Shown here: positions 6,465 to 40,875 of the stretch, one piece after another
How positions within the stretch are numbered: the stretch's first letter is position 1
Layout of the letters: each line of letters starts with the position of its first letter
Source: Pontixanthobacter aestiaquae
GTDB taxonomy: Bacteria > Pseudomonadota > Alphaproteobacteria > Sphingomonadales > Sphingomonadaceae
Length of the DNA: 64,000 nucleotides
Assembly (NCBI RefSeq): GCF_009827455.1
Contig: NZ_WTYZ01000001.1
Coordinates: 186,001-250,000, forward strand
Direction: 5' to 3'
Translations under genes and position numbers: made by a program
Notes under the pieces: generated by a model
The model's input: the letters and a program-made list of their open reading frames with translations, nothing else
What the model was told of the DNA's origin: nothing
Database searches by the model: none

Positions 6465-7160
6465 ATGCGTGTATTGTTGATCGAAGACGAGCCAACAACA
6501 GCGAAGGCCATCGAGCTGATGCTGACGACTGAAGGCTTTAACGTCTACGCAACCGATCTGGGCGAAGAAGGGCTCGATCTGGGCAAGCTGTATGATTACG
6601 ATATCATCCTGCTCGACCTGAACCTGCCAGACATGCACGGCTATGACGTGCTCAAGAAACTGCGTGTAGCCAAAGTGCAAACGCCGGTTCTTATCCTCTC
6701 GGGCATCGCCGAAATGGACAGCAAAATCCGCAGCTTCGGCTTCGGCGCTGACGACTATGTGACCAAGCCGTTCCACCGCGAAGAGCTGGTTGCCCGCATT
6801 CACGCCGTTGTGCGCCGTTCGAAAGGCCACAGCCAATCGATCATCCGCACCGGCAAACTGGCGGTGAACCTCGATGCGAAAACTGTCGAAGTCGACAGCG
6901 CCCGCGTTCACCTGACCGGCAAAGAATACGCCATGCTGGAGCTTCTTTCGCTCCGCAAAGGCACGACGCTCACCAAGGAAATGTTCCTCAACCACCTTTA
7001 TGGCGGCATGGATGAGCCCGAACTCAAGATTATCGACGTCTTCATTTGCAAGCTGCGCAAGAAGCTCAGCCATGCATGTGACGGCGAGAATTACATCGAA
7101 ACAGTGTGGGGCCGTGGTTACGTTCTGCGCGATCCGGAAGCCGCCGCAGAAGCTGCCTAA
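6465..7160 (+). CDS. ctrA: Cell cycle response regulator CtrA
   Basis: CtrA is the essential master cell-cycle transcription factor of alphaproteobacteria; phosphorylated via CckA-ChpT it binds TTAA-N7-TTAA sites and controls division, motility and often GTA genes. The ATG at 6465 gives 231 residues, the same length as Caulobacter CtrA. The receiver domain has the phospho-acceptor D51 ([14 protein letters not shown]) and TKPF near 104; the OmpR-type winged helix covers about 125-225, with a perfectly typical [10 protein letters not shown] end. An upstream in-frame extension is possible but carries no homology. A strong terminator follows at 7186-7222. DivK, which acts in the same circuit, is encoded at 29.6 kb. 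Confidence 0.98.
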
Positions 7161-7185
7161 TTCTTCAGTCTCCTGATACAGCGAG

Positions 7186-7222
7186 AACGCGCCCTGTGTT
7201 GAAGAACTCAGGGCGCGTTTTT
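7186..7222 (+). terminator. Rho-independent terminator of ctrA
   Basis: A perfect 11-bp stem (AACGCGCCCTG at 7186-7196 pairing with 7209-7219) with a 12-base loop runs straight into a T tract. It lies 25 bases after the ctrA stop. Confidence 0.92.
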
Positions 7223-7230
7223 GTGTGAGC

Positions 7231-7305
7231 TGTTTGTATTAGCCCCTCAGTCGCCGGATGGGACGCGGATGCGTCCCGCCCGGCGACTGAGGGACAAAAA
7301 CAAGA
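7231..7305. repeat. Palindromic copy of a dispersed intergenic repeat
   Basis: CCCTCAGTCGCCGG (7244-7257) is perfectly inverted at 7280-7293, and an inner inverted pair GGACGC/GCGTCC (7261-7266, 7271-7276) lies between them. Both arms are led by a T-rich stretch (TGTTTGTATTAG outside the left arm, and its like on the other strand outside the right arm). Related single arms occur at 36039-36064 and 57625-57650. It may act as a bidirectional terminator or a REP-like element. Confidence 0.7.
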
Positions 7306-7339
7306 GACTCCCCCGCTTGAGGCAAAACAAAAAACATGT

Positions 7340-8053
7340 ATGCGCAGCTCCATGACTGCTCATAAGCCCGGCGACCCCACAACACTCAACCGACTCTATG
7401 GCCGCAGCCAAGGCAAACCTTTGCGTGCGAGCCAACAGGACCTGGTCGAGAATTTCTTACCGAAGATTGCGGTGCCGCTGGAAGGCGACATCACATCGCA
7501 AGGCCTGTTCGGCGACGATCGGCCAATGCATTTCGAAATCGGCTTCGGTTCGGGCGAACATATGGCCGACCGCGCCGACATGCTGCCCGATCACGGCTTT
7601 ATCGGCGCCGAACCCTTCTTGAACGGTGTCGCAGGCGCGCTCACTCACGCCAAAGAGCGCGGGCTTGCCAATATCCGGATCCATCACGGCGATGCGCTGC
7701 AAGTGCTCGCCCGTATTCCCGATGGGGCGCTCAGCTTTGTCTATCTGCTGCATCCCGATCCATGGCCCAAAGCGCGCCATGCGAAGCGCCGGATGATGAA
7801 TGACGGCCCGGTGCAAATGATCGCAGCGAAGCTCAAAAAAGGCGGCGAGTTCCGCTTCGGCACCGATCATGACATCTATCTGCGCCACGCGCTAATGGTG
7901 ATGCGCCGCCATACCGACGAGTTCGAATGGCTCGCCGAAAGCCCTGCCGACTGGCAGAACCGCCCCGCGGGATGGAGCGAGACGCGGTACGAAAGAAAGG
8001 CCCGTGAAGTGTTTGGTCACGAGGTCTGGTATTTCAGGTATCGGCGGAAATAA
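7340..8053 (+). CDS. trmB: tRNA (guanine-N7-)-methyltransferase TrmB
   Basis: TrmB methylates G46 of tRNA to m7G using S-adenosylmethionine. The 237-residue protein shows the SAM-binding motif MHFEIGFGSGEH (about 56-67), an acidic pair in the next strands, and the family-specific LHPDPWPKARHAKRRM block (about 137-152) and TDHDIYLRHAL. The length fits the family. An in-frame ATG at 7352 is an alternative start; neither has a clear ribosome site. The gene stands alone after the palindromic repeat and before the LytTR regulator. Confidence 0.96.
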   Translation: MRSSMTAHKPGDPTTLNRLYGRSQGKPLRASQQDLVENFLPKIAVPLEGDITSQGLFGDDRPMHFEIGFGSGEHMADRADMLPDHGFIGAEPFLNGVAGALTHAKERGLANIRIHHGDALQVLARIPDGALSFVYLLHPDPWPKARHAKRRMMNDGPVQMIAAKLKKGGEFRFGTDHDIYLRHALMVMRRHTDEFEWLAESPADWQNRPAGWSETRYERKAREVFGHEVWYFRYRRK

Positions 8054-8079
8054 GATCACGGATTAGTGGGAGAAAGCGG

Positions 8080-8760
8080 GTGCTGGCATCATATCAAAAC
8101 TATCCGATAGGGCTGAGGCTGATGTTCACGTGCACTGGCGCAGTCGCCGTGAGCGCAGCCTATTGTCTGCTCTACAATTATTTCGCCGGTAATCCGGAGA
8201 CCCTGTTCAACGCCGCTGCGTGGGGTGTTATAAACATCGTCCCGTGGATCGCAGCCGTAGAAATAGCGCGTCACTTCCGCACGCTGCGGGCGGTATGCTG
8301 CGCGCTAACCGCGGCGATGGTCCTGTCGCTCGCCATCGAACTACCGATTTACGGGGAGTACCGTAGTGATTTGAGTTTTGAGATCGTGCGCCGACTACCG
8401 GGAGTAGCAGTGTCGGTAGCGGTACTCGGCATACTGGCGCTCAGGCCGCGTCCCCACCGGGCAAAAGATGCGGCGATCGATATGCGGCTGGAGCACTTTG
8501 ATTGGGCGCGCGCCGCAGGCAATTATGTTGAACTGCACCGCCACAATGAATCGCCCGTGCTTATCCGATCGACGCTGTCGGCATTGCTCGACCGAGATAC
8601 GGACGGGCTTTGTCAGATACACAGATCGTACATTGTCCGGCGTCAATTGGTGACACGGCTGGATCGTCAGGGCGTTCTACTCGCGAATGGCAAGCGGTTA
8701 CCGGTTGGCAATGCTTTTCGGGATGCGCTCAATTTCGTCCCTTCATCCCAGCGATCTTGA
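8080..8760 (+). CDS. Membrane-anchored LytTR-family transcriptional regulator
   Basis: The 226-residue protein has about four hydrophobic segments in its first 130 residues and a LytTR DNA-binding domain at about 135-220, including the pattern IHRSYIVRRQ and a preceding NYVELH strand. It has no receiver domain, so it probably senses a membrane signal directly and binds DNA from the membrane, as proposed for other sphingomonad membrane-LytTR proteins. The start is GTG at 8080 with GGGAGAAAG just upstream. The exported hydrolase gene begins 30 bases after its stop and is a plausible target or partner. Confidence 0.85.
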   Translation: MLASYQNYPIGLRLMFTCTGAVAVSAAYCLLYNYFAGNPETLFNAAAWGVINIVPWIAAVEIARHFRTLRAVCCALTAAMVLSLAIELPIYGEYRSDLSFEIVRRLPGVAVSVAVLGILALRPRPHRAKDAAIDMRLEHFDWARAAGNYVELHRHNESPVLIRSTLSALLDRDTDGLCQIHRSYIVRRQLVTRLDRQGVLLANGKRLPVGNAFRDALNFVPSSQRS

Positions 8761-8790
8761 TACGAAGCGAATTCGCGGCACCTTTGCCGC

Positions 8791-9840
8791 ATGATTTATC
8801 GCATCCTATCCGCGGCCCTGCTCCTGTTCGGTTTCGCTGTCCCGACCTATGCGTCGACACCAAAAGACAATGCGCTCGAGCACCGGACAGTTTCCGTTTC
8901 AACGACCGATGGCCTCGCTCTGTCAGCCTATATCAGCAGGCCGAAAAATTCGCGGGGGCCATTACCTGCATTGTTCCTGACCCAGTGGGTATCCTGCGGC
9001 TCTATCGCCCCGCGCGAGGATCGTGTGAGTTTGGAGGAGAAGCTGGCGCTCGCCGCCGGCTACGCCCTTATCCGCGTTGATCGAGCCGGAGAGGGATCGA
9101 GCGAGGGCCCGGGCTGCGATGCACTCGATTACAATACCGAGGTGCGTCACTACCGCGAAGCATTGGACCAATTGTCGATAGACCATTGGGTCGATCCACA
9201 CCGAATTGTCATTTACGGCAGCAGCTTGGGCTCCACGACTGCGCCGCTTGTCGCCGACGGAATGAACGTGGCCGGAGTTGTCGTCCAAGGCGGCGGGGCG
9301 CTGACTTATCTCGAACGGATGCTGCATTTCGACCGCCAGCAACTCGAACGGCAAGCCGATTTCCACCCACAAACCATTCACGCAGAGATGCTGCGCCGGA
9401 TGGAATTTCAGCGTTATTATCTGCTCGACAAGATGACCCCGGAAGCGATTGAAGATGCCCACCCCCATTTGGCAGGGGTCTGGGACTCGCTGCTGGGAAC
9501 CGATACCAAACCGCATTATGGCCGCCCCCACTCATGGCACTGGCAGGCAGCTGAGAAAGACTGGCTATCGGCTTGGACGCGGATCAATGCGCCCGTGATG
9601 GTGGTGTATGGACAATATGATCAGTTCGAACCCCGCCAAAGCCATCGCATCATCGTCGATACACTCAACCGGCTGCGCCCCGGCACTGCGACATGGCTCG
9701 AAATTCCGCGTGCTGGTCACGGGCTGCGTATCTACCCGGACCCGGTTTCTGCTTATGCATGGACAGGCGGGAAAAACCGCCCCGAATTGTTTGTCGACCC
9801 CGTCAGCAAATGGCTACGTTCCGTCGTCCAAGCAGAGTAA
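8791..9840 (+). CDS. Secreted alpha/beta hydrolase
   Basis: This 349-residue protein has a cleavable signal peptide (about residues 1-21, ending VPTYAS) and an alpha/beta-hydrolase fold. The nucleophile elbow is GSSLGS at about 145-150, the acid is probably in VVYGQYDQFEP, and the histidine in RAGHGLR near 313. The substrate cannot be told; a C-C or ester bond hydrolase or peptidase acting in the periplasm is possible. It follows the LytTR gene on the same strand and converges with maeB two bases after its stop. Confidence 0.8.
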   Translation: MIYRILSAALLLFGFAVPTYASTPKDNALEHRTVSVSTTDGLALSAYISRPKNSRGPLPALFLTQWVSCGSIAPREDRVSLEEKLALAAGYALIRVDRAGEGSSEGPGCDALDYNTEVRHYREALDQLSIDHWVDPHRIVIYGSSLGSTTAPLVADGMNVAGVVVQGGGALTYLERMLHFDRQQLERQADFHPQTIHAEMLRRMEFQRYYLLDKMTPEAIEDAHPHLAGVWDSLLGTDTKPHYGRPHSWHWQAAEKDWLSAWTRINAPVMVVYGQYDQFEPRQSHRIIVDTLNRLRPGTATWLEIPRAGHGLRIYPDPVSAYAWTGGKNRPELFVDPVSKWLRSVVQAE

Positions 9841-9842
9841 AC

Positions 9843-12104
9843 TCACCCGACAACCCCCGCCGCCGCCAGAACGGCCAGGGTCAACACATCGGGGGCAATC
9901 GCGGTCATCGGGACGATCTGCACCGGCTTTTCCATGCCGATCAGCATTGGGCCAATCGTGTCATCGCCCCCAAGCTCGCGCAGGATTTTCGCAGACAGGT
10001 TCGCCGATTGCAGGCCTGGCATGACCAGCACATTGGCCGGACCGGACAGGCGGTTGAAGGGGTAAAGCTCCATCACTTTCGGGTTCAGCGCAGCATCGGG
10101 GGCCATTTCGCCTTCATATTCGAAGCCTGGATCTTCCTTATCGAGAATGGCCACCGCTCCGCGAATATTGTCGAGCCATTTACCGCTGGGGTTGCCGAAG
10201 GTCGAATAGGACAGAAACGCAACGCGCGGTTCGTGGCCCATACGGCGCGCAACAGCGGCGGTTTCGCGGGCGATATGCGCCAGCTCCTCCGCGCTCGGAC
10301 GTTCGTTGATCGTAGTGTCGGCAAGGAATGTGGTGTGGTTTTTGCCGATCATCATATGGATGCCGAACGGCAGCGCGTCTGCTTTGGAATCGAGCACCAG
10401 ATTCACTTCGCGCGCAGTCTGCGCAAATGTTCGCGTGACACCGGATATCATCGCATCGCCATGGCCAAGCGCGACCAGCAGCGCGGCAAAAACATTCCGT
10501 TCCTGATTGACCATCCGACCGACGTCGCGCTGGGTATATCCTTTCCGCTGGAGCCGTTTATAGAGATAGTCGACCATCGCGGGGACATGCTCGCTGTCTT
10601 TCGAGTTCTGGATTTCGAAATCGCGATGATCCTCCACCCCCAGCATATGCATTTTGTCGGCGATGGCCTTTGTCCGGCCAACCAGTACCGGTGTGCCATA
10701 ACCAAAATCACGGAACTGAATCGCGGCGCGCAGCACAACTTCTTCCTCTGCTTCGGCAAAGACAACGCGTTTGGGATTGGCTTTGGCGATCTCATAGGTG
10801 TTGGTCAGAACCGATGTGGTCGGATTGAGCCGCGCTTTGAGCGATAGACGATAGGCCTCGAAATCCTCGATCGGTGCGAGCGCCACACCCGAATCCATCG
10901 CAGCTTTCGCCACGGCGGACGAAACAACTTCCATCAGGCGCGGGTCGAATGGAGCGGGGATGATATAATCGGTGCCGAATTTGTGGTTCTTGCCGTAAGC
11001 CGCCGCGACTTCTTCGGGCACTTGCCGCCGTGCGAGTTCCGCGATCGAATGCGCTGCCGCAACCTTCATCTCTTCATTGATTGCGGTGGCTTGCACATCC
11101 AGCGCCCCGCGGAAAATAAACGGGAAACCAAGGACATTGTTCACCTGGTTCGGGAAGTCCGAGCGGCCCGTCGCGATAATCGCATCGGGGCGGACGGCCT
11201 TGGCATCATCCGGGGTGATTTCAGGGTCGGGATTGGCCATGGCGAAAATGATCGGCCTGTCCGCCATCTTCTTGACCCATTCCGGCTTGAGCGCGCCTGC
11301 TGCCGACAGGCCAAGGAAGATGTCCGCGCCATCGAGCGCTTCTTCCAGCGTGCGTGCCTCGGTCTCGACCGCATGTGCGCTTTTCCACTGGTCAACATTT
11401 TCACGGCCCGGATAGATGGGGCCGCTACGGTCGCAAACGGTCACATTGTCATGCGGGACACCGATGCTCTTGATCAGCGCCGTACAGGCCAGCGCAGACG
11501 CGCCCGCACCATTGACCACCATCTTCACATTTTTGAAATCTCGTCCGGTCAAATGACACGCATTGATCAGACCCGCCGCCGCGATAATTGCCGTGCCATG
11601 CTGGTCATCATGCATGATCGGAATATTCATCCGCTCGCGCAGAGCCTGCTCGATGATGAAGCATTCGGGCGCGGCGATGTCTTCCAGATTGATCCCGCCA
11701 AAGCTCGGTTCCATCAGCGCAACCGCTTCGATAAACTTGTCCGGGTCTTCGGTATCCAGCTCGATATCGATCGAATCGACATCGGCGAAGCGTTTGAACA
11801 AAACCGCTTTGCCCTCCATCACAGGCTTGGATGCCAATGCGCCCAAATTGCCCATGCCAAGGATAGCGGTACCGTTCGAAATCACCGCGACCAGATTGCT
11901 GCGTGCTGTGTATTTCGCGGCGTTGGCGGGATCGTCGGCAATGGCTTGGACGGGAACCGCGACACCGGGCGAGTAGGCCAATGCCAGATCGCGCTGCGTT
12001 GCCATAGGCTTGGACGCGACAATCTCGATTTTGCCGGGCCGGATTGTCTCGTGGTAAAACAATGCTTCGCGTTTGGTGAACCCTGCATTTTTGTCGTCGG
12101 CCAC
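9843..12104 (-). CDS. maeB: NADP-dependent malic enzyme (fused to phosphotransacetylase-like domain)
   Basis: The protein decarboxylates malate to pyruvate while reducing NADP, linking the TCA cycle to NADPH supply. Its N-terminal 430 or so residues are malic enzyme (KPVMEGKAVLFKRFADVD, MHDDQHGTAI, the NAD-fold VVNGAGASALACTALI), and the C-terminal 320 or so are a phosphotransacetylase-type domain, the usual proteobacterial MaeB fusion. I place the start at GTG 12104 (GTGGCCGACGAC), which has GAGGG nine bases upstream and gives 753 residues. A longer in-frame reading to 12242 would run into the divergent mutS and lacks homology. Confidence 0.95.
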   Translation of the reverse strand: MADDKNAGFTKREALFYHETIRPGKIEIVASKPMATQRDLALAYSPGVAVPVQAIADDPANAAKYTARSNLVAVISNGTAILGMGNLGALASKPVMEGKAVLFKRFADVDSIDIELDTEDPDKFIEAVALMEPSFGGINLEDIAAPECFIIEQALRERMNIPIMHDDQHGTAIIAAAGLINACHLTGRDFKNVKMVVNGAGASALACTALIKSIGVPHDNVTVCDRSGPIYPGRENVDQWKSAHAVETEARTLEEALDGADIFLGLSAAGALKPEWVKKMADRPIIFAMANPDPEITPDDAKAVRPDAIIATGRSDFPNQVNNVLGFPFIFRGALDVQATAINEEMKVAAAHSIAELARRQVPEEVAAAYGKNHKFGTDYIIPAPFDPRLMEVVSSAVAKAAMDSGVALAPIEDFEAYRLSLKARLNPTTSVLTNTYEIAKANPKRVVFAEAEEEVVLRAAIQFRDFGYGTPVLVGRTKAIADKMHMLGVEDHRDFEIQNSKDSEHVPAMVDYLYKRLQRKGYTQRDVGRMVNQERNVFAALLVALGHGDAMISGVTRTFAQTAREVNLVLDSKADALPFGIHMMIGKNHTTFLADTTINERPSAEELAHIARETAAVARRMGHEPRVAFLSYSTFGNPSGKWLDNIRGAVAILDKEDPGFEYEGEMAPDAALNPKVMELYPFNRLSGPANVLVMPGLQSANLSAKILRELGGDDTIGPMLIGMEKPVQIVPMTAIAPDVLTLAVLAAAGVVG

Positions 12105-35336: not shown

Positions 35337-35987
35337 CTAGTCGCCCGGAACCACCTCGGTTGCTGCCTCGCATTTATCCTGCACTTCTTCGCTTCCCCCG
35401 CTGAATGATGTCAGTGCGAGGAAGCCGCCGACCACCAGAATGACGAACACCGCCGTTACAGTGCCAAGATATTTGTCGATGATCCGCTTGATCGGCGCAC
35501 CGAACAGGCGGAACAGGATGCCCACCGTCATAAAGATCATCGCGCGCGCGGCGAGGCTGGCGAGAATGAAGGGCACCAGCGCCATTTCAACGAAGCCTGC
35601 GGTGATAGTCAGCAGTTTGAACGGAACGGGAGTGGCGCCGGCGATCAAGATCGCCTCGACATCATACTCGCGCAAATAACATGCGGCGACAGGGAAACTC
35701 TCGCTAAGCCCGAGCAGCGAAATCAGCTGCGCCCCGACAGTATCGTAGAGCCCCCAGCCGATTGCATAGCCCAGCAATGCGCCCGCCACCGATGACAGCG
35801 TAGCCACTAGCGCGAAGCGAATAGCCTTCTTCGGTTCGGCCAAGCACATCAGACCGAGCAGCGGATGCGGCGGGATCGGGAAAAACGAGGATTCGATGAA
35901 ACAGAAAAACGCCAGCCACCACACGGCATGCGGATGGGCCGCTTTGTCCATCGTCCAATCGTAAAGCGCGCGCAGTAATTTCATCAT
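35337..35987 (-). CDS. YqaA/DedA-type (VTT domain) membrane protein
   Basis: The 216-residue protein has the VTT/SNARE-associated pattern: FFCFIESSFFPIPPHPLLG near residue 28, a glycine-rich helix AGALLGYAIGWGLYD, and GATPVPFKLLTITAGFV with the conserved Pro-Phe-Lys. Five or so hydrophobic segments are present. Family members are thought to scramble or transport lipids. It is the last ordinary chromosomal gene before the accessory region begins at about 36.0 kb. Confidence 0.88.
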   Translation of the reverse strand: MMKLLRALYDWTMDKAAHPHAVWWLAFFCFIESSFFPIPPHPLLGLMCLAEPKKAIRFALVATLSSVAGALLGYAIGWGLYDTVGAQLISLLGLSESFPVAACYLREYDVEAILIAGATPVPFKLLTITAGFVEMALVPFILASLAARAMIFMTVGILFRLFGAPIKRIIDKYLGTVTAVFVILVVGGFLALTSFSGGSEEVQDKCEAATEVVPGD

Positions 35988-36038
35988 CGTGCCCGCGCTT
36001 TAGGGAACGGTGGTAGGCGCGGCAATGAGAGAATAGTG

Positions 36039-36064
36039 GTTTGTTTCTGACCCTCAGTCGCCGA
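36039..36064. repeat. Dispersed intergenic repeat arm
   Basis: A T-rich lead followed by CCCTCAGTCGCCGAG (36051-36065) matches the arms of the palindrome at 7231-7305. TCGCCGA here is inverted at 36081-36087, overlapping the tip of the transposon terminal repeat. Confidence 0.6.
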
Positions 36065-36082
36065 GTTCGAGTCTTTTTGTTC

Positions 36083-36106
36083 GGCGATTTTGTACTTTAC
36101 AAACCC
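36083..36106 (+). repeat. Left terminal inverted repeat of the IS1595 element
   Basis: The repeat starts GGCGATTTTGTACTTTACAA and ends in ACCC. Its reverse complement matches 39614-39637 with three mismatches. Confidence 0.8.
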
Positions 36107-36147
36107 AGCCTTATCAGCTATAAAATAGGGGTAAGAAGCAATAAGCA

Positions 36148-37127
36148 ATGTCGGTACTTTCCAGCCCCCATTTTCACGATGAAGCCAAGGCGTTTGAGTA
36201 CCTTGAACGCATAGTGTGGGCGAATGGCGTCACCTGTCCGCATTGTGGTGTAGTTGATGGTCGCGTGTATGATCTATCAGGCGTTCGGTCCAAACCTTCT
36301 AAGAAGCATCCAGAGGGCAAAGTTCGGCATGGTCTGAAAAAATGTGGCGAATGTCGCAAGCAGTTTACCGTCAAAATCGGGACTGTTTTTGAGCACGCGC
36401 GCCTACCGCTTACCAAGATGTTGCAGGCCGTTCACCTGATAGTGTCGAGCAAAAAGGGCATTAGCGCGCATCAGCTTAGTCGCGTCCTCGAAGTCCAGTA
36501 TAAGAGTGCGTGGTTCCTCGCGCACCGTATTCGTGAAGCTATGCGCTCCGACAATTTACCTCCAATGGTCGGTAACGGTGGCGCTGTCGAAGTGGACGAG
36601 ACTTTCATCGGCAACCTGAAGGGCAAACCGACCAAGCGTGCTTTCCATCACAAAATGAAGGTTCTGGCGCTTATCGACCGTGATAGCCGTCAGGCCCGCA
36701 CTATGGTGATTAAGAACGTTCGCCCTGAAACTATTATGCCGCTGGTTGTCAAAAACGTCGCGCGTGAAGCTACGCTAATGACCGATAAACACTGGGCATA
36801 CAATTCGGCGCTAGAGCACTTTCCGGCCACGGTCGCACGGTCCACAACAAGGGGCAGTACGTGGACCTCGAAAACCGCGAAATCCATAGCAACACTGTCG
36901 AGGGCTATTTTAGCATCTTCAAGCGCGGTATGAAGGGCGTTTATCAGCATTGTGGTGAGCAGCATTTGCACCGCTATCTGGCGGAGTTCGAGTTTCGCTA
37001 TAACAACCGCGTTGCGAACGGCTTCGATGATCGTGCTCGTTCCGTCGCGGCGGTGAAGGGCATTGTCGGTAAGCGGATTACGTACCAACAACCTGACCGC
37101 CAACACGCCGCCCGAGGGCAGGCATAA
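36148..37127 (+). pseudogene. IS1595-family transposase, frameshifted
   Basis: The transposase has an N-terminal zinc ribbon (CPHC at residues 30-33 and CGEC at 66-69) and a DDE-type core: first Asp in VEVDETFIGN (D150) and second in LMTDKHWAYNS (D213). The frame then breaks near 36825-36835. The homologous end continues one frame over, with GRTVHNKGQYVDLENREIHS, NTVEGYFSIFKRGMKG and FEFRYNNR to 37127, supplying the third catalytic region. One missing base after the HFP codons explains the shift. Programmed frameshifting is possible but not usual in this family, so a disabled transposase is the simpler reading. Confidence 0.88.
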
Positions 37128-37157
37128 AAGGCGGAATCAGCGGTGGCGAACCAAGCG

Positions 37158-38039
37158 CTAAGCGGCCCGATATTGTGGGCGATGTATCTGCCTGTCGCGC
37201 ACTTCGCTTGGCATCTTTAGCCCCTTGGAAGCGACTAGCAGTTCAGTGCCGACCCTTTTGGTCTGCACAGAATAGTTGACGTCAAAACCGAACTGCCGCC
37301 TCGCTTTGTAGAGGTGAGAAATTTCAGGTGCGTTGTCGTAAGTCAGTATCCAAGGTCGCCCTAATCGGAGGACCGCTTGGCTAACCGCTAAGTGGTCCTC
37401 AGGATTGTAGAAGCTGGTATATAGGCTTCGACCCTTGTTGTAGTACGGTGGATCGATGCAATAAAATGCCCGTTCAGGCAGGGTTTCGTCCATCCGATCC
37501 ATAAACTCCAGTGCATCCAACTGGTGCAGGTGAATGCGAGAGCGATACTTCGCGATCCGCTTGATCCGTTTGGCCAAACCAAGTCGATTGAACCGGCAGT
37601 CCATTTTGTAATTGCCCTGCTGTTCCAAACCACCGATCACACCAGCACCTTTCACGATGCCCGAACGGTTTGTCCGGTTTAGAAAGAACGTGGCGAAGCC
37701 GACTGTGAGGTCATCGTAATCGTCGGCGTTCTGGTAGATATCGCGCTGGCGGAACCAGCTCTCCATATCAATCGGCGTGGTCTCAATGAGACTAACCAAG
37801 TCATCAGTCGCATTGAGAGTGCTATCCCAAAACGCCCAAATTGACCTATCATAGTCATTCAAGTGGATGTCGATTACATGGCCTTCAAATAGCAACGTAA
37901 GCGCCAATCCTGCCCCACCCGCATAGGGTTCGGCATAGTGGCCCCGCTGTAGCTTATTGAGCCGCAAAATGTGCGCAGTGAGGTCGTACAGGCAGGACTT
38001 TCCGCCTGGATATCGAAGGGGTGAATGTGAACGAGCCAT
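37158..38039 (-). CDS. D12-class DNA adenine-N6 methyltransferase
   Basis: The 293-residue protein is a Dam-type methylase. It has PGGKS (about 11-15), SAM motif I EPYAGGAGLAL (37-47), the FFLNRTNRSGI segment (about 118-128) typical of this branch, and catalytic DPPY at 196-199. The target sequence cannot be read from the protein. All motifs are intact. It starts 40 bases after the ParB-like gene on the same strand and is probably co-transcribed with it. No restriction endonuclease gene is adjacent. It lies inside the IS1595 element as a passenger. Confidence 0.92.
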   Translation of the reverse strand: MARSHSPLRYPGGKSCLYDLTAHILRLNKLQRGHYAEPYAGGAGLALTLLFEGHVIDIHLNDYDRSIWAFWDSTLNATDDLVSLIETTPIDMESWFRQRDIYQNADDYDDLTVGFATFFLNRTNRSGIVKGAGVIGGLEQQGNYKMDCRFNRLGLAKRIKRIAKYRSRIHLHQLDALEFMDRMDETLPERAFYCIDPPYYNKGRSLYTSFYNPEDHLAVSQAVLRLGRPWILTYDNAPEISHLYKARRQFGFDVNYSVQTKRVGTELLVASKGLKMPSEVRDRQIHRPQYRAA

Positions 38040-38079
38040 AGCCAGTTAAAGCATTTACGGCCGAACGGCCACAACTTTT

Positions 38080-39354
38080 TTAAGAGGCTTGGTTAGCAGC
38101 ATCCTCGATTGTCTTAAGGATCAATTTTTTCAGCGTATCCATATCGTTAACGGTTTGCTCTCCGTTGAAGTTCGCGCCGGTTCCGTGGTGTTTCGTAACA
38201 TCACCTGAGCGCGCAATACTCTCCAGAGCGCCAAAGAGCGCTTTGTTGCCTTTGCCGGTATCGAGACCATAACGTTGAAGGCGATGTGTGCTGAAAAAAC
38301 TCGTGAATGGGGTGTTTGCGTTCCGCCCAGCTAAGCCGGATAAAGACTCGATGAATGCCCACGCCCCGATTGAAACGAGAGGAGCGTGTGGTGTGAGTGG
38401 AACAGAGGTAATTGAATCGTATAAGTTAATCAGCTTCTGACTATCCAACTCCTTCAAAGCATCCATAATTTCATGCTCGAATGGCAACGTTGTACGTGGC
38501 TTTGGCTTGACGCGGCGTCTAACTGGTTTGGCGGGCTTTTCGGGCGCGGGCTTACTAAGCGGCTCCGCTTTGATGGAAGGCTTTCCCAATTGCTCGATAG
38601 CCGACAGCTCCCGCCCGTATGCCTCGAACATCTCTTTGCCCTTGGAGCGACTATTCACATGGCCGCTACCCAGATCGCCAATGAACTTAACGAGCACCTT
38701 GTCAAAGTCCGGTTTCGGCTTCGTCTTACGGATGTTGTCGAGGTCCGTTACGTCTAGACCCATTGCCTCTTGAACGGGTTTTTTGCTCACATAGCGCTGC
38801 ACGGTCGTGAGTTTTCCCTTCCGGTCATCGGCCGAAATCAGCCCCGCCTCCTCCGCATAATCAAGGACCGCTAGTGCAATCTTGTTCTTGTCACTCCCGC
38901 TATGTCGCTGCGATTGGTCTGCGCTCCACTTCTTGCGTCCAATGCCTCCCTGCTGGCCGTCATGAATACGCGTAAGCCAAGGTTTCACCGAGGGACGATC
39001 CGGAAAAATGACCGCCGGTACCGTTGGAATTCCGGCCCAACCATCAGCAAGCGCTTCAAACGAATTGCTGAGCTTAGCGGGCGCTCTGTCTGGATCGCTA
39101 AGTGGTTTGAGGGCGCATACTCGGCGGTTTCCTTCTGCAACAATGAAGGTCTGGCCATCAGCAAGCAGTGCGAACGGCTCAATCGGGTTGAGTCCGTTAT
39201 CGACAATATCCTTGGCCAGTGGCAGAATATCCTCATTGCGGCACAGATATTCGATCACCTCGCCTTCCGTATCGCAAGGCTCGTGACGTGGATTGCTCAG
39301 ATCCAAGAAAATCTGATCGACTGCAACCGGTTTACTAAACGGTGTCTGCGCCAT
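38080..39354 (-). CDS. ParB/Srx-fold domain protein with unknown C-terminal domain
   Basis: The 424-residue protein has an N-terminal ParB/sulfiredoxin-like domain: LDLSNPRHE (about 18-26), an ILPLAKDIVDNGLNPIEPF helix-strand, and the nucleotide-site variant AEGNRRVCALK (about 73-83) in place of the GERR box. A middle part (about 100-260) is helical, and a Lys/Pro/Arg-rich linker (about 265-288) precedes a C-terminal domain of about 130 residues that I do not recognise. It is not a chromosome ParB: no ParA partner or helix-turn-helix of that type is seen. The pairing with the methylase suggests a DNA-modification or defence role. Upstream, 74 bases separate it from a divergent small gene. Confidence 0.75.
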   Translation of the reverse strand: MAQTPFSKPVAVDQIFLDLSNPRHEPCDTEGEVIEYLCRNEDILPLAKDIVDNGLNPIEPFALLADGQTFIVAEGNRRVCALKPLSDPDRAPAKLSNSFEALADGWAGIPTVPAVIFPDRPSVKPWLTRIHDGQQGGIGRKKWSADQSQRHSGSDKNKIALAVLDYAEEAGLISADDRKGKLTTVQRYVSKKPVQEAMGLDVTDLDNIRKTKPKPDFDKVLVKFIGDLGSGHVNSRSKGKEMFEAYGRELSAIEQLGKPSIKAEPLSKPAPEKPAKPVRRRVKPKPRTTLPFEHEIMDALKELDSQKLINLYDSITSVPLTPHAPLVSIGAWAFIESLSGLAGRNANTPFTSFFSTHRLQRYGLDTGKGNKALFGALESIARSGDVTKHHGTGANFNGEQTVNDMDTLKKLILKTIEDAANQAS

Positions 39355-39428
39355 TGAATGCCTAACTTTCCATACCCAACTAAATCGAGTATATAGAACG
39401 GCATCATTTTTTGAGCGGAGTCAATGTA

Positions 39429-39569
39429 TTGGCTGAGAAGAAACCACAAATCGACAAGTTTAAGGAAGCTGCGCGCGAATTGGAATGCGAAGACGATGAA
39501 AAGCGCTTCGCCGACCGGCTCGGAAAACTAGTTAAACAAGTGCCTGCGGACAACGCCGCAAAGGACTAG
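39429..39569 (+). CDS. Small charged protein, transposon passenger
   Basis: A 46-residue protein starts at TTG 39429, eight bases after GGAG; an out-of-phase ATG at 39424 is too close to that site. The sequence is rich in Lys, Glu and Asp (starts MAEKKPQIDKFKEAARELEC) and is probably helical. It diverges from the ParB-like gene and lies within the IS1595 ends, so it belongs to the passenger cassette. It could be a regulator or antitoxin-like partner; that is a guess. Confidence 0.6.
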   Translation: MAEKKPQIDKFKEAARELECEDDEKRFADRLGKLVKQVPADNAAKD

Positions 39570-39604
39570 TCGAAACCAGCGCGCCGTTCGCTAACCCCGC
39601 CGCT

Positions 39605-39715
39605 TTAGGGCTTGGGTTTGTTAAATACACAATCGCCAAAGATAAAACGCAAAGCACGGCCGCCAAACAGCGGTCCGCCAAAAAGTGCGCGAGGCAAGTG
39701 ATCAATATTGCTCAC
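39605..39715 (-). CDS. Short reading frame running into the transposon end
   Basis: A 36-residue frame starts at GTG 39715 with an excellent ribosome site (GGAGG six bases upstream) and begins MSNIDHLPRALFGGPLFGGR. Its last ten or so codons lie in the right terminal repeat (39614-39637), where it ends. It may be the surviving start of a host or GTA gene cut by the insertion, or a small protein encoded across the boundary. I do not recognise the sequence. Confidence 0.45.
   Translation of the reverse strand: MSNIDHLPRALFGGPLFGGRALRFIFGDCVFNKPKP
39614..39637 (-). repeat. Right terminal inverted repeat of the IS1595 element
   Basis: The repeat reads GGGTTTGTTAAATACACAAT followed by CGCC on the plus strand and mirrors the left end at 36083-36106 with three mismatches. 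Confidence 0.8.
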
Positions 39716-39734
39716 TTAGCACCTCCAATCGCAC

Positions 39735-40875
39735 TTGGGTACGCTTCGTATAATAACACTAGAAGGTAAGCCCTGCCTTTACGATGATGCGGCAGTGAGT
39801 GCATTTGGCAGTGCCCCCGGCCATCACCGATTTGCGCGAACCACTGGATCAGGATCAAACCGATCTGCTGGATCAGGCCGGAGCGATCTTGGCACAATCG
39901 ACGCTCGATCTGGCGCAGGCAGTCCGAAATGCGACGAACGGACCGGCCGAAATTCTGCTGCTCGCGTTCACGCCGACGATCCTCGACCCCGAAATGCCCG
40001 AAGCAAAGCGTGCCAATGTGCCGCTTGGCTGGGCGTGGCCTGCTTTCGACCGGTTGCAGCTCGAAGACTATGACTGGTTGACCGCTGGCGCGGATGCCAA
40101 CCGGCGCGCAGCCTATGCAGAGTTCGACCAGCGGCTTGGCTATCCCACCGAACGGCAGGATTATCTTTCGGGCTTTGTGCTGACGCCGGACGATGCCGAC
40201 GAATATTGGCGGCGTATCGATGCCGGTCTGGATGAAGCCGCCCGCCGCGGCATCACCAAACGGTATGTCTGGGCGCTCCCGCAAATTTCCCGCGACGGCT
40301 ACACCCGCCTCGCATTGTCAGAGGAAGATGACGTGCAAGCATTCGACGATGTTCTCTATCCGCTCGCGTTGGGCCGTGACGCAGGCGTCAGTCCCGGATT
40401 TTCGACGACGGTGGCAGTCACAGCGTCCGGCCATGAGCGTCGCAACTCGCTATGGTCGGACGCCCGGCTGCGCTTCGATGTCGGTCCGGGTATCCGCTCC
40501 GAAAATGAGCTCGGTACGCTCATCGCATTCTTCCGTGCTCGGCGCGGTGCAGCGCGCGGCTTTCGGTTGACCGATCCGTTTGATTTCAGCTCCAACGCAA
40601 TGACAGGTGCGCCCAATCCGACTGATCAGAACCTCGGTACAGGTGATGGCATCACAGCCAATTTTGCCCTCATAAAATCCTATGGCGATGGCGACGAACC
40701 GCAAATCCGCCCTATCACCCGGCCGCGGCTTGAAACGCTGACGATTAGTATCGACGGCGAGGTTGCAAGCGATTGGTCATGGAACGGGGATGGCAGCATC
40801 ACCTTCACCGCCGCCCTGCCCGAGGGCGCCATTGTCACGGCGGGATTCCTGTTCGATGTTCCGGTCCGCTTTTGA
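39735..40875 (+). pseudogene. GTA tail protein (TIM-barrel/DUF2460 type), 5'-truncated and frameshifted
   Basis: This is the C-terminal part of a sphingomonad-type GTA tail protein that normally has about 750 residues. The frame at 39762-39818 encodes GKPCLYDDAAVSAFGSAP. A C5 tract (39814-39818) then shifts to the frame opening at 39799, which continues with ITDLREPLDQDQTDLLDQ, LQLEDYDWLTAG and the DUF2460 part (SDARLRFDVGPGIRSENELG, FFRARRGAARGFRLTDPFD). Deleting one C restores the expected reading. The N-terminal half is missing upstream, and at the 3' end the frame stops at FDVPVRF, earlier than usual. DUF2460 proteins build the distal tail. Taken alone, the 39799-40875 stretch could be annotated as a 358-residue protein. 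Confidence 0.8.

Follow-up and report, generated by a model that had tools for sequence, protein, structure and literature searches.

Some insertion sequences of the IS1595 family carry passenger genes, and a cited title, that of Siguier et al. 2009, is reportedly linked with such elements. Described examples (tIS) are MTnSag1/tISSag10 and tISCpe8, which have an IS1595 transposase, 25-bp terminal inverted repeats (TIRs), passenger genes and a target duplication (excerpts of PMC5704250); according to those passages and to cited titles they are mobilizable, and one is a lincomycin resistance element. PD-Lambda-5, a pair of adjacent, co-oriented genes for a ParB-like protein (A) and an adenine methyltransferase (B), was discovered as an anti-phage system through functional selection (Vassallo et al. 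2022, PMC9519451); in the available part of that paper the authors call theirs a prophage version, and parts of other papers (among PMC10799925, PMC12824646 and PMC12629846) place the system in prophages, integrative and conjugative elements, integrative and mobilizable elements, and genomic islands. Here we describe a locus of Pontixanthobacter aestiaquae, within a stretch of 64,000 nucleotides (NZ_WTYZ01000001.1, positions 186,001 to 250,000; hereafter the window), where a 3.5-kb, TIR-bounded IS1595-family element with passenger genes spans positions 36083-39637. The unit is very probably a tIS that has a PD-Lambda-5-type anti-phage module as its cargo.

The locus shares with PD-Lambda-5 the two adjacent genes in one orientation, and differs in that these lie within a single IS1595 transposon. 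Compared with the described tIS, it has a defence pair as cargo, mostly alphaproteobacterial relatives and a small accessory open reading frame (ORF). ISApl4, of the IS1016 subgroup, likewise belongs to the IS1595 family and has 8-bp direct repeats (7-9 bp in other IS1016 elements), but it measures 712 bp, its transposase gene has 654 bp and its TIRs 14 bp, and one genome contains 39 copies (excerpts of PMC12561309), whereas the window element has 3.5 kb, TIRs of about 25 bp and one copy. The term 'IS1595' does not occur in the available portions of PMC9519451, PMC10799925, PMC12824646 or PMC12629846, and no report of IS1595 with PD-Lambda-5 or other defence cargo was found among the titles and abstract beginnings listed for the non-subscription literature without preprints, so that the combination may be described elsewhere. 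Vehicle and cargo are each known; their combination is not found reported in the searchable papers.

The element ends in a left TIR at 36083-36107 (plus strand; GGCGATTTTGTACTTTACAAACCCA), of a type common to six other PD-Lambda-5 elements, and a right TIR at 39613-39637 (minus strand; GGCGATTGTGTATTTAACAAACCCA). The first-pass annotation of this DNA had proposed an IS1595-family element with imperfect 24-bp inverted repeats at both ends, and this is borne out: 21 of 24 positions match, and the extended arms run to 34 nt at 82%. In the 2.87-Mb genome the TIR pattern, with up to three mismatches, occurs at two places only, both of them element ends, and a control pattern at none; the transposase and the ParB-like gene are each present in one copy. 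G+C content is 52.2% in the element and 57.4% in the window. The zinc ribbon and DDE motifs ascribed to the transposase were both recovered. The ORF at 36148-36933 (plus strand), its N-terminal part, carries the zinc ribbon (Pfam Zn_ribbon_IS1595, 4.5e-11) and the first part of the DDE domain (DDE_Tnp_IS1595, 6.6e-13, profile positions 4-103 of 153), matches NCBIfam transpos_IS1595 at 9.8e-34 and leaves frame before the end of the domain; the C-terminal part lies in another frame at 36861-37127 (plus strand; DDE_Tnp_IS1595, 2.9e-13, profile positions 111-153 of 153). Membership of the IS1595 family, taken as a zinc ribbon plus a DDE transposase above Pfam and NCBIfam cut-offs, holds, though across two frames.

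Three non-transposase genes were correctly placed between the ends by the first-pass annotation, at 37158-38039 (minus strand), 38080-39354 (minus strand) and 39411-39569 (plus strand). The first encodes a D12-class adenine-specific DNA methyltransferase of 293 aa, with a Pfam MethyltransfD12 match and similarity to the adenine methyltransferase of PDB 7m6b (1e-12); its residues 1-285 match positions 1-284 of 291 of the PADLOC model PD-Lambda-5_B (PDLC04018) at 4.9e-121. The second, 40 bp away in the same orientation, encodes a ParB-like protein of 424 aa with a putative HEPN-like C-terminal fold, residues 6-422 of which match positions 4-427 of 428 of PD-Lambda-5_A (PDLC04000) at 1e-166. Protein A had no Pfam family (window protein at E≤0.1; three homologues, from loci L011, L024 and L007, at E≤1) and no PDB sequence match at E≤1; its predicted structure resembles ParB and HEPN proteins. 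Both cargo ORFs are open from end to end. By its PADLOC assignment the passenger pair is a PD-Lambda-5 system, with phage protection as the predicted function. The methylase/ParB-like cassette noted earlier stands as such, but the pair that matches PADLOC PD-Lambda-5 A and B is a described system, which the annotation had not recognized; its suggestion of a mobile DNA-modification or defence module is supported as the best reading.

The same unit recurs in other bacteria. An alignment of 20 A proteins, used as query, found 61 genome loci (a single A protein as query gave none), and six of them share the arrangement of the window, with an IS1595 transposase behind the A-B pair and convergent with it. 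These six come from Brevundimonas (L011), Mesorhizobium (L027) and four metagenome-assembled genomes: Hyphomonadaceae (L021), an alphaproteobacterium (L024), Rhizobiaceae (L025) and Sphingomonadales (L028). All six have the same TIR type (consensus, window included, GGCGATTTTATACTTGACAAACCC), and in all six the transposase is one unbroken ORF. Five show perfect 8-bp target-site duplications (TSDs; aatggaaa, gctgagct, aaaataat, ccctcaag and caaaaaaa); at L028 no target duplication was found. Because the same unit stands between similar TIRs, with perfect TSDs in five of six cases, it is a real, recurrent transposon. A search of 385 genomes of the window's class for an empty site, with the joined L027 flanks, gave no match across the junction, only a one-sided match (74% over 152 bases) and short, chance-like matches.

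The PD-Lambda-5 module also exists outside the element. It had been argued beforehand that cargo found without these ends would tell against a transposon, and at 55 of the 61 genome loci, some of them shortened by contig ends, no transposase adjoins; the transposon reading still stands, because six loci hold cargo and transposase between TIRs, five of them with TSDs. Among the 55, three (L007, L008 and L030, the last ending at a contig end) retain only a TIR upstream of A, scoring above the best of 61 shuffled loci, and L008 has a weak transposase remnant at the expected position (E 0.012). L048 has an IS1595 transposase several kb from A, apparently a separate element. The remaining loci, some of which end at contig ends, have neither TIR nor transposase at the thresholds used. 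At one locus (L020) two A copies stand in tandem (7001-8230 and 8583-9860) and the B methylase was not detectable. Protein A is also encoded on 12 viral contigs, 11 of which have B as well, and is matched by 11 phage records and five plasmid records, all at <60% identity. Phages were considered as the source of PD-Lambda-5 and rejected: this IS1595 transposase and the small ORF are absent from all 12 viral contigs. An Escherichia coli P2-like phage locus was dropped as a yardstick; PD-Lambda-5_A models match its ParB-like protein over the first ~160 residues only, and its methylase hits models of cytosine methylases.

Two facts about the window copy were absent from the first-pass annotation. 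A frameshift divides the transposase, so that the two parts of one DDE domain lie in two frames, and no TSD was found: the outer eight bases, ttttgttc and aaagataa, match at one position of eight. In a finder that pairs TIRs (≥17/24) with TSDs (≥7/8), thresholds that were never attained together in 120 random placements whose downstream sequence had been reversed, the window passes on the TIR and fails on the TSD. A programmed frameshift was rejected on account of the unbroken transposase ORF in the six related PD-Lambda-5 elements; the absence of an internal stop from most full-length transposase matches listed in a profile search of the 385 genomes also counts against it. With a frameshifted transposase, no TSD and a single copy, the window element is regarded as immobile, probably a relic whose cargo is now a fixed chromosomal locus. 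Mobility, suggested earlier for this element, is supported for the family, represented by the six loci between TIRs and the five TSDs, but probably does not hold for the copy in the window.

The surroundings of this copy are a scar. On its left lies the minus-strand gene 35337-35987, a neighbour conserved in four congeners, for what we take to be a DedA-like membrane protein; on its right, at 39762-40875 (plus strand), is a truncated gene whose frame breaks near its start and whose ORF, 39799-40875, corresponds to the last ~350 residues of a 773-aa gene in one congener (L175). In the four congeners with both flanks (L175, L176, L178 and L179) the DedA-like gene and the 773-aa gene are ~9 kb apart (9.1 kb in L175), and phage-type portal and capsid genes occupy the stretch between. 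We infer a gene-transfer-agent-like head-tail cluster there, the names of its other genes being presumptive. Portal and capsid families were found in five of six congeners tested, and neither in the genome of the window nor in the sixth congener (G252). The window lacks that stretch and the 5' part of the last gene, and the element occupies the scar (35988-40875): congener homology ends at 36007 and resumes at ~39762, leaving 75 and 124 bases beside the element unaligned. A deletion beside the element, presumably later than its insertion, would fit this and explain the missing TSD.

From the TIRs, the IS1595 transposase, the homology of the cargo and the recurrence of the whole unit with 8-bp duplications, all of them observed directly, we infer how the unit may work. 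An intact transposase would bind the TIRs and move everything between them, duplicating 8 bp of target. Protein B would methylate host adenines as a mark of self; protein A might use its ParB-like nucleotide-binding domain to sense unmarked DNA as it enters, and its putative HEPN-like C-terminal domain to act. A and B together would give a compact restriction-plus-abortive-infection response. The vehicle would be dead in the window, its transposase being frameshifted, and the cargo genes, still open, would persist as a fixed chromosomal locus.

Other explanations were weighed against this one. The passenger pair might take no part in phage defence and be an ordinary restriction-modification (R-M) locus or an orphan methylation locus that stabilizes or regulates the transposon through addiction or TIR methylation. 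Post-segregational killing by R-M pairs is established and would favour the keeping of a single-copy element, and B also matches type II methyltransferase models (PDLC03358, 1.4e-107). We nevertheless consider this unlikely: A has no PDB sequence match and a model that resembles ParB and HEPN proteins, and the pair occurs in many genomes with no detectable transposon and, both genes together, in 11 of the 12 viral contigs, and therefore does not depend on the element.

A tIS carrying PD-Lambda-5 could also be intact and mobile in the window, with a sequencing error as the frameshift; the transposase parts do overlap in different frames, so that one shift would be enough to explain the break, and the TIRs and cargo ORFs are otherwise open. 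The missing TSD, the single copy and the position in a larger deletion scar, where DNA to the left and right of the element does not align, instead agree with an insertion that is old and has decayed, and make an error a poor bet. That the two TIRs stem from separate insertions which trapped the cargo by chance is improbable in the extreme. In its favour, the window lacks a TSD, as does L028; against it, order and TIR type recur at the six other loci, five of which have matching 8-bp TSDs, and this genome has only one transposase and one TIR pair. For the family, chance trapping is already contradicted.

The third ORF between the ends, at 39411-39569 (plus strand; ~52 aa), belongs to a family that recurs in IS1595 elements with different cargos. 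In a profile search its homologues were found in 19 of 46 distinct elements, always on the transposase strand; they are present in six of the seven PD-Lambda-5 elements, counting the window (not in L021), and in elements with PIN, HEPN, DUF3800 or unknown cargo. All matches are stop-to-stop frames, and a mechanically called ORF overlaps some of them on the opposite strand; family members lie, for example, at L011 6746-6928 and L024 9199-9387 and in L130. The profile search matched 1030 database proteins at E≤1e-3, nearly all of the 120 listed being unnamed or 'hypothetical', and two members had no Pfam match over the cut-off. Because it recurs with unrelated cargos, the small ORF is best regarded as belonging with the transposon; that it regulates transposition is a guess. 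The three-gene passenger cassette proposed earlier therefore contracts to the methylase/ParB-like pair. At two loci (L002 6799-7104 and L063 2675-2980) a weak small-ORF match (E 3.5e-4) is divergent from A, positioned as in the window, with no TIRs detectable around it; these are possibly domesticated remnants of such an element, and the identical A rows of the two loci may make them one case.

Trees show repeated new pairings of cargo and vehicle, by capture, exchange or loss; the counts cannot separate gain from loss. A quick tree of A proteins, with 36 rows (34 different) comprising the window and ORFs with ≥350 matched residues from 64 loci, needs seven label changes for the seven element-borne proteins. 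On a quick transposase tree of 57 rows the PD-Lambda-5 cargo needs six changes, at least five of them forced by well-supported branches, and its labels are not more clustered than shuffled ones (124 of 500 shuffles as low).

A profile built from the six transposases matches in 106 of the 385 genomes, and 52 transposase regions, mostly the best-scoring of the matches listed and not a random sample, were taken further. Among 54 transposase places without PD-Lambda-5, 37 have ends that pass both finder thresholds, the 7/8 TSD being a condition for being counted, and 34 of these match at 8/8; 19 of all 61 places had no such end pair and do not figure in the cargo counts, although four of them (L028, L126, L143 and the window) still entered the small-ORF count. 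The 37 bounded elements measure 1833-4306 bp (median 2483), and each has at least one ORF of ≥140 aa besides the transposase; since the finder also accepts ends directly behind the transposase, compact elements were not excluded. Ten of 20 more distant IS1595 places also pass, at 2.0-4.1 kb, and room for cargo is therefore not special to this IS1595 group.

Cargo ORFs were called mechanically, so some may not be genes, and 40 of the 56 of ≥140 aa were scanned with Pfam. Thirteen have a family over the cut-off: two PIN, a methylase-Mrr fusion, NYN, GmrSD-HNH, GmrSD, two HEPN, RelA/SpoT, DUF433, DUF3800, DUF1828 and a single IS5-type transposase, which had inserted into an element; the other 27 have none. 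PADLOC lent support to cargo of L120 (methyltransferase of R-M type), L149 (NsnA / PD-T4-2_A) and L154 (PDC-S33), and at 1e-5 had no model for seven of ten chosen cargo proteins; for a set of 50 the listing covered the 25 commonest of 94 families. Where cargo is recognizable, it leans towards defence or toxins; for most cargo, defence is no more than a possibility. Individual elements varied. L120 (G675), with TIRs and a 7/8 TSD, carries a gene for a fusion of DNA methylase and Mrr-type nuclease domain beside a PIN-domain gene, and L149 (G705) pairs its GmrSD_N protein with a HEPN_MAE_28990 protein. At L128 two neighbouring IS1595 elements with passengers face opposite ways, and a separate 8-bp TSD was scored for each; at L163 the passenger element has an IS5-type transposase gene inside it, and the IS1595 transposase of that element is split.

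Defence systems are already known to travel with prophages, plasmids and islands. At 3.5 kb, a simple transposon is a far smaller vehicle, one that can do without phage or conjugation genes, and its intact relatives with the same cargo point to a simple route for the spread of defence. Tentatively, and at somewhat under even confidence, the alphaproteobacterial IS1595 group may be a defence-cargo platform, with one transposase, ~25-bp ends, a frequent ~50-aa accessory protein and one exchangeable slot for compact defence or toxin modules; on that reading the slot would have taken up PD-Lambda-5 several times, as well as R-M fusions, GmrSD with HEPN, toxSAS-like proteins and PIN pairs. Should such modules be regular cargo of IS1595 elements, the unknown part of that cargo would be a list of candidate defence genes with sharply defined ends, and therefore with less guesswork on where a defence locus begins and stops. 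If the platform reading is true, many of the uncharacterized cargo genes would be undiscovered defence systems.

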